Origin: Campylobacterota bacterium
GTDB taxonomy: Bacteria; Campylobacterota; Campylobacteria; Campylobacterales; QNZT01
Reading direction: 5' to 3'
NCBI GenBank assembly: GCA_022600175.1
Contig: JAHZKW010000140.1
Location: 1 to 37,488, forward strand
Length of the DNA: 37,488 nucleotides
The notes under the pieces are model-generated. The model made no database searches, was not told where the DNA came from, and saw only the letters and a program-made list of their open reading frames with translations. Each line of letters opens with the position of its first letter. Within the stretch, counting starts at the first letter, position 1. The position numbers and the translations under genes are program-made. This document shows positions 11,805-18,829 of the stretch, in pieces.

Positions 11805-12512
11805 TTACAGCTTTGCTGCAATCTCTACCATTTCACTAAAAGCATCTACATCCCAGCTGGCTGTTCCTACAAGTACACCTTCGCAATTAGGAATTTCCAA
11901 GATCTCTTTAGTGTTAGCTACTTTAACACTACCACCATATAGAAGCGGTGCTTTGAGCTTTTGTTTTAAGAGAGCTAGTGTCTCTTCGATCTGTTCGTTG
12001 GTTGCTGTAAGTCCAGTGCCGATTGCCCAGACTGGCTCATACGCAATGATCAGATTCTCATAATCGATATCAATTCCCTCAAGTTGTGCAAAATTATAGG
12101 CGATCACTGCTTCGATCCCCTCTTCTCTCACCTCTTTTGGCTCACCGATACAGTAGACGATTTTAAAATTTTTTGCTTTGAAAAAATCATATTTTTTAGC
12201 AACCTCATCTTGGCTCTCTCCAAGGACATGACGTCTTTCACTGTGTCCAATTAAGATCGTTTGAAGATTAAACTCTTCAATCTGTTCTAATCCAATCTCA
12301 CCTGTAAAGGAACCTTTTTCAACAGGATAAGCATTTTGTACACCCACTTCCAGATTATCTTCAAGATCAAAACTATCCAAAGCACTGCTTGGCGGAAACA
12401 CCAAGACACTATCACTACTATTTGTTTTCGTAACAAAAGTGTTTAACTTTTCGATATACGCTCTTGTACTTGCTCTGGTATGGTTTGTTTTAAAATTAGC
12501 AGCGATAATCAT
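11805..12512 (-). CDS. tpiA: Triosephosphate isomerase
   Basis: 235 aa. It interconverts glyceraldehyde 3-phosphate and dihydroxyacetone phosphate in the cytoplasm. The N-terminal substrate Lys is in AANFKTNHTRAST, the catalytic His in LIGHSERR, the catalytic Glu in AYEPVWAIGTG and the phosphate loop in LLYGGSVK. The short form (about 235 aa rather than 250) with NFK for the usual NWK fits Campylobacterota. The start lies one base after the pgk stop, so it is the last gene of gapA-pgk-tpiA. Confidence 0.95.
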   Translation of the reverse strand: MIIAANFKTNHTRASTRAYIEKLNTFVTKTNSSDSVLVFPPSSALDSFDLEDNLEVGVQNAYPVEKGSFTGEIGLEQIEEFNLQTILIGHSERRHVLGESQDEVAKKYDFFKAKNFKIVYCIGEPKEVREEGIEAVIAYNFAQLEGIDIDYENLIIAYEPVWAIGTGLTATNEQIEETLALLKQKLKAPLLYGGSVKVANTKEILEIPNCEGVLVGTASWDVDAFSEMVEIAAKL

Positions 12513-12513
12513 A

Positions 12514-13716
12514 CTAGTGCTTTAAAACTGCTTCAACACCTGGAAGCAATTTACCCTCTAGAAGCTCAAGACTCGCTCCACCACCGGTAGAGATAAATGT
12601 CATCTCATCCACATCACCTGCACGCTGAGCAACGTCAGCCGTGTCACCACCACCGACAATAGTCGTTGCATGACACTCAGCAATATAGTGACTCATCATG
12701 AAACTCCCTTTTGAGAACTTATCGATCTCATAAACACCCATAGGACCATTCCAAAGGATTGTTTTTGCATCATTAAGTGCTTCTCTAAAAAGTCTATTTG
12801 TTGCAGGTCCGACATCAAGTCCCATCCAATCTTCAGGAATCTCCTGAATCGGTAGAAACTTCACCGGTGCAGCATCACTGATCTCAGGAGCAACTACTAA
12901 ATCTACTGGTAGATAAAACTTCACACCAAGCGCCTGCGCTCTATAGATGATACGCTTTGCATCTTCAAGCAAGTGATCTTCTACGAGTGATTTACCTATT
13001 TCATACCCTTGCGCTTTTAAGAAGGTAAATGCCATACCACCACCAATGATAATTTTGTCAACTTTCTCTACTAAGTTTACCAGTGCTTGAAGCTTACCAG
13101 ATACTTTACTACCACCGACAACTGCGACAAACGGACGTGTTGGTTCCATCACAGTTCTATGGAAAAAGTTTACCTCTTTTTGCATCAAAAATCCAGCTGC
13201 TTTATGCTCAGTATCAAAGTGCTCAGGTAGTGCAAAGATAGAACCATGTTTTCTATGACTTGCACCAAATGCATCATTGATATAGATATCTGCCATAGAA
13301 GCAAGACGCGCGGCAAATTCACTATCATTTGCAGTTTCACCTGGATTATATCTGAGATTCTCAAGTAGCATCACATCACCGGCTTCCAAACCTTTTGCTT
13401 TCTCAATCGTATCTTCACCGACTACATTGTCAGCCATAATAATCTCTTGTTTTAAAAGTGAGTGTAGTCTTTTTGCAACTGGCTTTAGAGAATCTTTCTC
13501 CTCATTCCACTCGCCTGGCTTTGGACGACCAAAGTGACTTGCTAAGATAACCTTACAATCACGATCGATACAATATCTAATCGTTGGCAATGCTGATCTA
13601 ATACGTCTATCATCACTGATATTGCCAAACTCATCTTTTGGTACGTTAAAATCACATCTTATAAATATACGTTTCCCATCAATGTCAAGATTTTTAATTG
13701 ATAATAGTTCCATCAT
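12514..13716 (-). CDS. pgk: Phosphoglycerate kinase
   Basis: 400 aa, full length. It transfers phosphate between 1,3-bisphosphoglycerate and ADP. Visible motifs include the N-terminal RCDFNVP, the substrate segment [35 protein letters not shown] and the nucleotide-binding tail [16 protein letters not shown]...[16 protein letters not shown]. The ATG overlaps the TAA of gapA by one base (TAATG), so translation is probably coupled. Two ATGs are adjacent (MMELLS) and either could be the start. Confidence 0.96.
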
Positions 13717-14726
13717 TATACTCCGTGTGTAGAGATATGTTTTGCCATGTCAATTAGTCTACAAGAGTAACCCCACTCATTGTCATACCAAGCCATTACT
13801 TTGACAAAATTACCATCTACCACTTGGGTTAGATCACCTGCAACAATTGCGCTAATCTCTGAACCCACAAAATCAGAAGAGACACGCTTATCATAATCAA
13901 CTTCGATCAAACCTTTTAGTGCACCATTTTGTGCCGCTTCAAATGCTGCATTGACCTCTTCCTTTGTTGTCTCTTTTTTCACCATTACGTTAAGGTCAAC
14001 CATTGAAACATTGGGTGTAGGAACACGAATCGCTTGACCATTAAGCTTACCTTGAAGGTGTGGCATTACAAGACCAATTGCTTTTGCCGCACCTGTTGAC
14101 GTGGGGATCATGTTCACAGCAGCGGCACGTGCACGGCGAGGATCTTTTGCATGTTTAACATCAAGGATATTTTGATCATTTGTATATGAGTGACATGTAG
14201 TTACCAATCCCTTTTCAATGCCAAACACATCATCAATCACCTTTGTCACAGGCGCTAAGCAGTTTGTTGTACAACTTGCATTTGAAACGATCGTTTGTCC
14301 TGCATAACTCTCTTCATTAACACCCATTACAAATGTTGCTGTCTCTTTATCTTTTGCTGGTGCAGAGAAAAGTACTTTTTTAATACCCATATCAATATAA
14401 GCTTGTGATTTTTCTTGTGTATAAAATGCACCTGTACACTCTAAAAGTATTTCTGCCCCATATTTTGCAAAGTCAAGATTTTTTGGATCTCTGTCATTTA
14501 AAAACTTAACTTTTGATTTTCCGATCTGCATATAGTTGTCTTCGAGGATTTCAACATCACCTTTAAAGGTTCCATGTACGCTATCATATTTTAAAAGATA
14601 TTTTGTCATCTCTGGATCTGTTGTATCGTTGACAACGACGAGCTCCATATCATCTCTATCTTCTAAAATTCTTGCGACACATCTTCCAATCCTACCAAAA
14701 CCTGTAATAGCCACTTTTATAGCCAC
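13716..14726 (-). CDS. gapA: Glyceraldehyde-3-phosphate dehydrogenase
   Basis: 336 aa. NAD-dependent phosphorylating GAPDH with the Rossmann start [11 protein letters not shown], catalytic Cys in [12 protein letters not shown] and the C-terminal [13 protein letters not shown]. It starts at GTG (14726-14724): AAAGGAG lies five bases before it, and the ATG inside GAGATGC is out of frame and touching the ribosome site. First gene of the glycolytic operon. TATAAT-like boxes for both directions lie in the 98-base gap to nadD. The Campylobacter gene order gapA-pgk-tpiA next to divergent nadD is kept. Confidence 0.96.
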
Positions 14727-14824: not shown

Positions 14825-15703
14825 ATGAATATAGCACTATTTGGCGGGAGTTTTGATCCTCCCCATATTGGACATGAAGCAATCATACGTGAAGCTTTAC
14901 AAAATCTCGATATTGATACGCTTTTTGTAGTACCTACGTTTCTAAACCCTTTTAAAAAATCCTCTTTTGCGTCTGCAGAGAAACGTTACAAATGGATTCA
15001 AAAACTACTTCGCTCTTACCCTAAAGCAGAAGTATTGGATTTTGAAATCAAAAAAAACCGCCCAGTACCAACGATTGAAACAATCAAGTACCTTAAAAAA
15101 AAATATGATATTCATAAAATATATTTAATTATAGGTGCTGATAATCTGCCGCAGTTAAAAACATGGAAATCTTTTGATACACTAAGCCAACTTGTTGAGT
15201 TTATTATTGCGACACGAGAGGGTGAAAAAATCCCCGAAAACTTGCAAAAATTGGACATTCATGTTACTATCAGCTCCACAAAATTAAGAGAAGAGCTGAA
15301 ACAGGAGTTTTTACCTAAATCTATTGCTGATGAGGTGATAACTTATTATGAGATAAGGAGAAAAATGGATAAGAGAGTTGAAAAGATTATTGAAATCTTA
15401 GATGAGAAAAAAGCAGATAATATTCAGCTTTTTGATATGAGAGAAAAAGATTATTTTGTAGATGATGTGATCATCGCAACTACACTTGGTGAAAAACATG
15501 GTGCTGCCCTTTTAGACTACCTGAAACAAGGATTAAAAGTTGAAGGGGAAAGTTACTTTCATGTAGAACCAAGTGATGAGTGGACGGTACTTGATATGGG
15601 CGACATTCTCATCCATCTTATGACACCTGAATATCGCGCAAAATATAATATTGAAGAGTTTCTATCACACCGCCAAAAAGAGCAGAGTATCCAACCAGAA
15701 TAA
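14825..15703 (+). CDS. nadD-rsfS: Nicotinate-nucleotide adenylyltransferase fused to ribosomal silencing factor RsfS
   Basis: A single 292-codon frame joins two proteins. Residues 1-180 are a complete NadD: GGSFDPPHIGHE nucleotidyltransferase motif, PTFLNPFK, and ISSTKLRE at the end; it makes NaAD from nicotinate mononucleotide and ATP. Residues 181-292 are a complete RsfS/DUF143 (EKIIEILDEKKADNIQLFDMREK...VEPSDEWTVLDMGDILIHLMTPEYRAKYNIEEF), which binds ribosomal protein uL14 and blocks subunit joining. The internal ATG at 15365 has its own AAGGAG four bases upstream, so RsfS may also be made alone. In C. jejuni, as I recall, the two are neighbouring separate genes. Fusion by loss of the nadD stop is likely; a sequencing error is possible. 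Confidence 0.9.
   Translation: MNIALFGGSFDPPHIGHEAIIREALQNLDIDTLFVVPTFLNPFKKSSFASAEKRYKWIQKLLRSYPKAEVLDFEIKKNRPVPTIETIKYLKKKYDIHKIYLIIGADNLPQLKTWKSFDTLSQLVEFIIATREGEKIPENLQKLDIHVTISSTKLREELKQEFLPKSIADEVITYYEIRRKMDKRVEKIIEILDEKKADNIQLFDMREKDYFVDDVIIATTLGEKHGAALLDYLKQGLKVEGESYFHVEPSDEWTVLDMGDILIHLMTPEYRAKYNIEEFLSHRQKEQSIQPE
15357..15367 (+). promoter_or_regulatory. Internal ribosome site and ATG for stand-alone RsfS
   Basis: AGATAAGGAG-AAAA-ATG occurs inside the fused frame exactly at the NadD/RsfS boundary. It is a stronger ribosome site than the one in front of nadD, which supports internal initiation. Confidence 0.55.
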
Positions 15704-15762: not shown

Positions 15763-15792
15763 TTGACATTTTAGGTCTAATTTGATTACAAT
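15763..15792 (+). promoter_or_regulatory. Promoter of the PAS gene
   Basis: TTGACA (15763-15768), 18 bases, then TACAAT (15787-15792). This is the only clear -35/-10 pair noted in the window. It lies about 35 bases before the TTG start. Confidence 0.55.
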
Positions 15793-15827: not shown

Positions 15828-16466
15828 TTGCTTGCAACTAAAAAGTACCCTACTGCACTACCTGTTAAAAATTTCATTCAAAATGGCAATACATTAGAAA
15901 AATTCATCAAGCCTCAACCTATTGATCATGAAATAGAGATTGAACCAAATAGTCTCCTTATGAGTAAAACAGACCTACATGGAACAATCGAATACAGCAA
16001 TGATTACTTTATAGAGGTAAATGGATATCAAGAGAGTGAATTGATGGGACGAACACAAAATATTATCAGACATCCTGATATGCCACAAATTATCTTTCAA
16101 ATGCTTTGGGAACATCTTCAAAATCACCAAAACTTCTCAGCATTAATCAAAAACCTCGCAAAAGATGGGCGTTACTATTGGGTCTTAGCACACTTTAAAA
16201 TCCACAATAATCAAAATAACTATGAAGTAGGCAACTATTATGCGTACAGATATGCGGCACCCAAAACAGGAGTTGTAGAGATTGAAAAACTCTATAAAAA
16301 GCTACTTGAAATTGAAAAACAACGAGGAGTGGAAGCTTCTAAAAAGTATTTTGTTGGTTTTTTAGAAGAGCGTGCCCAAAGTTATGAAGCATATCTCAAT
16401 GAGCTTACGGGTCATAATAGACCGATCAAACGTATCACAAAAGCGATAAGAAACCTCTTTAAATAG
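15828..16466 (+). CDS. PAS-domain sensor protein without output domain (Aer/CetB-like)
   Basis: 212 aa beginning at TTG, preceded by AAGGA at good distance. A PAS domain spans about residues 45-150: SKTDLHGTIEYSNDYFIEVNGYQESELMGRTQNIIRHPDMPQIIFQMLWEHL, then WVLAHFKIH, the signature of Aer-type redox sensors, where FAD is usually bound. No HAMP, kinase, GGDEF or MCP domain follows, only a charged helical tail. This is like Campylobacter CetB, a PAS-only protein that signals through a separate membrane partner. No such partner is encoded nearby. Probable role: energy taxis or redox sensing, by family. Confidence 0.78.
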   Translation: MLATKKYPTALPVKNFIQNGNTLEKFIKPQPIDHEIEIEPNSLLMSKTDLHGTIEYSNDYFIEVNGYQESELMGRTQNIIRHPDMPQIIFQMLWEHLQNHQNFSALIKNLAKDGRYYWVLAHFKIHNNQNNYEVGNYYAYRYAAPKTGVVEIEKLYKKLLEIEKQRGVEASKKYFVGFLEERAQSYEAYLNELTGHNRPIKRITKAIRNLFK

Positions 16467-17853: not shown

Positions 17854-17884
17854 ACTTGCAACCCTTTTGTATCTAAATTATCCT

Positions 17885-17896
17885 ATAATTATAATC
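17885..17896 (+). promoter_or_regulatory. Promoter of the ATP-grasp operon
   Basis: CCTATAATTATAATC has two overlapping TATAAT boxes about 25-35 bases before the ATG at 17921, in the 67-base divergent gap with the M20 gene. Confidence 0.5.
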
Positions 17897-17920
17897 TTAT
17901 TTCTCCTAAAAGGAACTGCA

Positions 17921-18829
17921 ATGTCTACGCATAAAATCGGCATGTGGATGTATCAAAATAGCGGTGGTGAACAGATCCAAAAAAAGATAATTGACAAACT
18001 TCGAGAAAGAGATATTATCACGACTACAGATCTCAACCTCAGAAATGCAATTGCTAAAAATGGTTCCATTATCTGTAATGATACGGCAATGGAAAAGCTC
18101 GATCTCTTTTTTAGCTATAACGCAGGTCAACAAACCCAATACCAAGTTTACCTCTACGAAACACTTGATAAATTTATTCCTATTATTAATAACTACGATG
18201 CATTTGCACTCACTGAAGATAAGTTTAAAACCTCACATCGTCTTAGACACCACGGTGTCTTGACCCCAGAGTTTAAACTCTGTCATAGAGATGATGTAGA
18301 CAAACTCAAACATGTACTTCGTGAGTGGGGTGGAAAAATTGTCTACAAGCCTACTGATGGCTGGGGAGGTATGGGACTTGTCAAAATCGAAAACGAAGCA
18401 GCACTTGATATGTTACTACCATTTTTAAACCAAACAGATATCCGCTATTTTTATGTTGAAAAATTTGTCAACTATGACAATACCGATTTTAGAGTAGACA
18501 TCGTCAATGGAGAATTTGTCGCATGTTATGGACGAAAAGCGGCAAAAGATAGCTGGAAAACAAATATCACAAGTGGTGGAAGTATCTTTTTAAGAGAGCC
18601 AAATGACAAACTGGTTGAGATCTCTAAAAAAGCAGCAAAAGTAACAGGTCTTGAGATCGCAGGGGTAGATCTCATTTATGATCAAGAACAAGAGGAGTAT
18701 GTAGTATTAGAAGTAAACGGTATACCAGCATTTGCAACACCAGAACAAGAGGCTATGGGACTTAATTTTAACGATAAAAAAATTGATTTAATTGTCGATT
18801 TAATAGACAACACAGTAAAGGGCAAATAA
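17921..18829 (+). CDS. ATP-grasp ligase, RimK/glutathione-synthetase-like (first of a pair)
   Basis: 302 aa after moving the start from 17867 to the ATG with AAAGGAA upstream (MSTHKIGMW); the longer track start passes through the promoter. ATP-grasp features: nucleotide Lys in GKIVYKPTDGWGGMGLVKI, the hinge FYVEKFVN, DFRVDIVNGEFVACYGRKA, the glycine loop TNITSGGSIF, and metal ligands in GVDLIYDQEQEEYVVLEVNGIPAF (Glu and Asn both present). Such enzymes couple ATP to acyl-phosphate formation and ligate a carboxylate to an amine, often an amino acid to a peptide C-terminus. The gene is two bases upstream of the second ligase. Substrates unknown. Confidence 0.83.
   Translation: MSTHKIGMWMYQNSGGEQIQKKIIDKLRERDIITTTDLNLRNAIAKNGSIICNDTAMEKLDLFFSYNAGQQTQYQVYLYETLDKFIPIINNYDAFALTEDKFKTSHRLRHHGVLTPEFKLCHRDDVDKLKHVLREWGGKIVYKPTDGWGGMGLVKIENEAALDMLLPFLNQTDIRYFYVEKFVNYDNTDFRVDIVNGEFVACYGRKAAKDSWKTNITSGGSIFLREPNDKLVEISKKAAKVTGLEIAGVDLIYDQEQEEYVVLEVNGIPAFATPEQEAMGLNFNDKKIDLIVDLIDNTVKGK

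Follow-up and report, generated by a model that had tools for sequence, protein, structure and literature searches.

An in-frame nadD-rsfS overlap in Campylobacterales that probably yields both a fusion protein and free RsfS

The window, i.e., the whole stretch of 37,488 nucleotides that was analyzed, contains one uninterrupted nadD-rsfS open reading frame, which runs from an ATG to a TAA and has no internal stop codon. A Shine-Dalgarno (SD) motif and an ATG are located at the boundary between its two domains (Table 1). A genome search revealed a single RsfS and a single NadD above the cut-off, namely those of the fused ORF, in the genome of the window. No RNA element was found in the window with Rfam, and promoter and terminator scans around the fused locus gave results near chance level. 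Shortly 3′ of the fused ORF a PAS-domain protein with a TTG start is encoded (15828-16466, plus strand), and a promoter-like sequence, TTGACA-TACAAT, is present by this gene at 15763-15792. The window also encodes a RimK/glutathione-synthetase-like ATP-grasp protein (17867-18829, plus strand), and an M20 peptidase gene adjoins on the opposite strand.

Table 1. Features of the nadD-rsfS locus and its neighborhood, with positions in the window.
Feature	Coordinates	Strand	Basis
nadD-rsfS fused ORF, 292 aa	14825..15703	+	no stop codon within; fused homologs present in congeners
NadD domain (nicotinate-nucleotide adenylyltransferase), codons 1-180	14825..15364	+	TIGR00482; phmmer; Foldseek
RsfS domain (ribosome silencing factor), 112 aa as separate product	15365..15703	+	TIGR00090; phmmer match with RsfS of known structure
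Internal Shine-Dalgarno TAAGGAG, 4 nt ahead of the internal ATG	15354..15360	+	sequence; conservation; synonymous control
Internal ATG, codon 181, putative start of free RsfS	15365..15367	+	position and SD agree with the sole rsfS start in unfused L005 and L006
Junction helix, residues 168-194, predicted	15326..15406	+	AlphaFold2 model, DSSP
gapA, divergent neighbor	13716..14726	-	Pfam
pgk, beyond gapA	12514-13716		Pfam
tpiA, beyond pgk	11805-12512		Pfam

Profile searches with NCBIfam were used to characterize the two halves of the protein. The NadD half matched TIGR00482 with 148 bits (cut-off 112.45; residues 5-174, profile positions 1-187 of 194) and the RsfS half matched TIGR00090 with 87.5 bits (cut-off 56.9; residues 185-279, profile positions 2-98 of 99). 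Pfam was in agreement for both, with CTP_transf_like covering the NadD half. An in-frame fusion of two complete domains, as proposed in a preliminary description of this DNA, was thus confirmed. The protein contains the NadD motif GGSFDPPHIGH as well as the C-terminal motif ISSTKLR (ISSTxLR), and among 48 fused proteins the NadD residues G7, G8, F10, D11, P12, H14, H17, and S151 were invariant, while S150 and R155 were nearly so. With phmmer the NadD domain matched the solved NadD structures 2h29 and 1kam and the RsfS domain matched solved RsfS structures, and Foldseek also matched NadD to 2h29 (TMt 0.80). The RsfS of S. aureus contacts uL14 with W77, D81, and Y98 (PMC9503621). By their spacing, and not from an alignment with S. 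aureus RsfS itself, these residues correspond to W253, D257 (W+4), and Y274 (W+21) of the fusion, the first two of which were invariant and the third nearly invariant in the 48 fused proteins. The same number of fused sequences was used for an AlphaFold2 run, which yielded a model with a mean pLDDT of 93.6 and block values of 93-97. In this prediction NadD and RsfS are joined, with no linker in between, by a single helix assigned with DSSP. Both domains of the fusion look intact, and the fusion as well as free RsfS would be expected to be active. The activities that define the two families are the synthesis of deamido-NAD from NaMN and ATP for NadD and, for RsfS, binding to the 50S subunit, by which the joining of subunits is blocked.

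The preliminary description had also pointed to AAGGAG and an ATG at the domain boundary. The motif in fact comprises seven bases, and the arrangement was found to be conserved far beyond chance. An SD motif of at least four bases together with a start codon was present at the boundary in 78 of 81 fused loci, compared with 10% of control windows of equal size elsewhere in the same genes; for motifs of at least five bases the values were 69 of 81 and 2.7%, respectively. The start codon, ATG or TTG, was retained in the fused loci, and the motif and its spacing closely resembled what is seen in unfused genes, in which they belong to the sole start of rsfS. When arginine was encoded at position -9, the codon was AGG in 33 of 35 cases, versus 10.9% elsewhere in these genes, and every member had AGG in 17 of the 19 clades with arginine at this position. 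Averaged over 38 fused clades, an SD motif of at least five bases was found in 83%, while 18% were expected from synonymous codons for the same amino acids. For the corresponding stretch of the window, TYYEIRRK, synonymous draws gave a seven-base motif in 2.2% and a motif of at least five bases in 8%. In two loci from the genus of the window, L003 and L004, the motif is merely a weak one of the AGGG type. The predicted RNA structure at the internal start was weak and unremarkable (-3.2 kcal/mol). Because SD and start are conserved above the synonymous expectation, the internal start looks selected.

A survey of related genomes for fused and unfused forms, as suggested in the preliminary description, revealed that both occur. 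Three of five congeners, which are 68-69% identical, have the fused form (G001, G004, and G005), and a stop codon at the junction in every close relative, which had been named there as speaking against the fusion, was thus not observed. The remaining two (G002 and G003) are unfused and have out-of-frame overlaps of -17 and -8 nt. These overlapping pairs share with the window the gene order, the SD and start of rsfS, and 67-73% identity per domain; they differ in that the two genes are read in different frames and nadD ends 8-17 nt within rsfS.

Two alternative explanations of the arrangement in the window had to be weighed at this point. The genome is a draft MAG of 163 contigs, and a change of 1-2 nt separates the fused from the unfused state, so that the fused frame might have been created by an indel during assembly or sequencing. 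However, the fusion is found in other congeners and also in many complete single-contig genomes. The fused locus L002 of G004 (68% identical) has the same distance of 75 nt between the ISSTxLR motif and the rsfS start, and the residues of the window align with the homologues as far as the junction. Because of this agreement a private single-base error in the MAG is unlikely, and an indel artifact of any kind is hardly credible. The other alternative accepts the fusion, but regards it as the sole product and the internal SD and ATG as an inactive relic of an unfused ancestor. SD and start indeed derive by descent from unfused ancestors, part of their conservation could be due to this inheritance, and ribosomes translating in frame could mask the internal start. 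On the other hand, the persistence of both elements across clades of about 50% protein identity argues against mere inheritance and for use of the start. The excess over the synonymous expectation in the fused clades, the preference for AGG at position -9, the retention of ATG or TTG, and the weak local RNA structure also speak against a relic, which is an improbable explanation. We infer that the internal start at 15365 is used.

The distribution of the fusion was analyzed in a sample of the phylum. A single full-length match in an open frame was found in 84 of 397 well-assembled genomes; these 84 span eight families, and about 20% of Campylobacterales genomes are fused. In one of the 84 (G203) the only stop lies where the match ends, and its fused state was confirmed from the DNA. 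At the DNA level 185 distinct loci were distinguished: the genes were fused in 81, in different frames in 80, and in the same frame with an intervening stop codon in 24. On a tree built from the NadD and RsfS sequences, with the junction excluded, a minimum of 31 changes of the fused state was required, and of 27 after branches with support under 90 had been collapsed; shuffled labels led to about 60 changes. This tree contained 38 maximal fused clades. Some genera are largely fused, e.g., f10 with 18 of 22 and g8 with 30 of 43 (counted by eye). The number of state changes shows that the fusion is a frame into which overlapping nadD and rsfS have fallen repeatedly, and not a single innovation. 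In C. jejuni the two genes are presumably separate, an assumption for which there is one ambiguous table entry. The earlier proposal that the fusion is a derived state is plausible as such, but not in the sense of one event.

A few loci deviate from the general organization. In four loci of family f9 (L170, L175, L178, and L183) and in L039, nadD and rsfS are close to each other but encoded on different strands, which sets these loci apart from the others in the group. In L199 (G021) NadD stops directly after ISSTxLR and RsfS follows, with 6 nt from motif to start; with this spacing the last helix of NadD would be absent or replaced by a helix of RsfS. A handful of other fusions have similarly short distances of 6-9 nt, and L022, L024, L026, and L245 (G362) resemble L199, judging from match coordinates.

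The distance from ISSTxLR to the rsfS start differs between the two forms. It is mostly 72 nt, and also 75 nt, in fused genes, whereas it is 70, 71, or 73 nt (mostly 70 or 71) in most overlapping unfused genes. Within the genus of the window, distances of 75 and 72 nt occur in fused genes, 99 nt in one fused congener, and 73 nt in the unfused form. The fusion therefore represents that state of a drifting overlap in which the two reading frames coincide. The scan for related loci favors fused genes in its ranking, and frequencies were taken instead from a random sample of every fifth genome. In this sample nadD and rsfS were adjacent on one strand in 66 of 76 genomes. Phase 0 was found in 23 of the 66 pairs (15 fused, 8 separated by a stop codon), phase 1 in 20, and phase 2 in 23, and a recount from the DNA was identical. 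For the 66 tips of the random sample, a three-rate model that treats gain and loss of the fusion separately was not significantly better than equal rates (lnL -86.50 versus -87.64). The tree of all loci, which is enriched in fused genes, yielded a different result, and a three-rate model with low loss of fusion was favored (lnL -95.7 versus -102.7). This could reflect selective retention, but it was discounted because fused genes are oversampled in that tree and the random sample, which is small with its 66 tips, did not repeat it. Neutral phase drift is the simplest reading, although the test is weak at 66 tips and leaves room for modest selection in particular genera. As the three phases were about equally frequent and equal rates were not rejected, nothing points to selection for the fusion itself, which thus appears to be tolerated rather than selected.

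These observations are probably best explained by an in-frame (phase 0) overlapping nadD-rsfS pair with dual output. In the group, nadD usually extends beyond the SD of rsfS, and often beyond its start codon. Small indels close to the end of nadD shift the frame in which it enters rsfS. Two of the frames lead nadD to a stop codon just within rsfS, while in the third frame read-through generates the fusion; the SD and start of rsfS are retained in every frame. Initiation at the first start would yield the NadD-RsfS fusion of about 34 kDa, and initiation at the internal start would yield free RsfS of about 13 kDa. Since the rsfS signals are kept whatever the frame, both proteins are most likely made. 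The possibility of two products, already raised in the preliminary description, is therewith likely as far as conservation of SD and start can tell, and the fusion together with free RsfS is the likeliest output.

One might suppose that the fusion has been selected because NadD, when tethered to RsfS, links ribosome silencing with NAD(H) synthesis or with the NaMN/ATP status; the preliminary description had proposed such a link between NAD synthesis and ribosome hibernation. The fusion is frequent in f10 and g8, the enriched tree indicated a low loss rate, and the continuous junction helix, if formed as predicted, would hold the domains rigidly. However, the fused phase is as frequent as expected for a random overlap phase, and the rates into and out of fusion are alike in the random sample. 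Close relatives of the same genus manage without the fusion, and free RsfS is probably also made because the internal start is retained. In addition, the NadD-YbeB (RsfS) fusion of Wolinella succinogenes was assayed and exhibited neither NAD cleavage nor pyrophosphatase activity (PMC3223725). Selection for such coupling is thus improbable, and a regulatory link between NAD and hibernation, for which no positive support was obtained, is equally improbable. Still further removed, and very improbable, is a junction that acts as a dosage switch, in which the internal site sets how much fusion is made relative to free RsfS, silencing follows the nucleotide-bound state of NadD, and the rigid helix relays the signal.

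Under the preferred reading of a drifting overlap with dual output, the locus belongs to a clear series from nature: a gene pair passes from overlap to fusion and back by shifts of 1-2 nt, and the second gene retains its own start. Bacterial gene fusions can thus appear and vanish at little cost, and a gene fusion alone should not be taken as evidence for a functional link. Annotation based on the longest ORF would leave free RsfS unrecognized in roughly one in five Campylobacterales.

The fused locus L130 (G187), which we take to be that of W. succinogenes, has an SD motif and a TTG at the boundary, and its protein is 49% identical to that of the window. In a partial literature search, queries for NadD with RsfS or a fusion gave nothing relevant and the older names NadD and iojap led to the Wolinella fusion; no paper was found that reports how often the fusion recurs, how it relates to overlap phase, or that its internal start is conserved. 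The Wolinella NadD-YbeB protein is listed in BMC Genomics 2011 (PMC3223725), and a NadD-RsfS fusion as a kind is, according to that entry, already known. The ORF of the window is of the same type, with both domains complete in one ORF and NadD first, and both organisms belong to the same bacterial order. In contrast to the present analysis, the available part of that paper contains only the negative assay in a table and mentions neither an internal start nor recurrence. Same-strand phase-0 overlaps are rare and akin to alternative initiation or termination (PMC2542354), and a reviewer in the same publication ties them to gene fusion. The nadD-rsfS pair differs from such overlaps and from genes with internal in-frame starts in that the two starts would serve two unrelated complete domains, which share a common stop codon.
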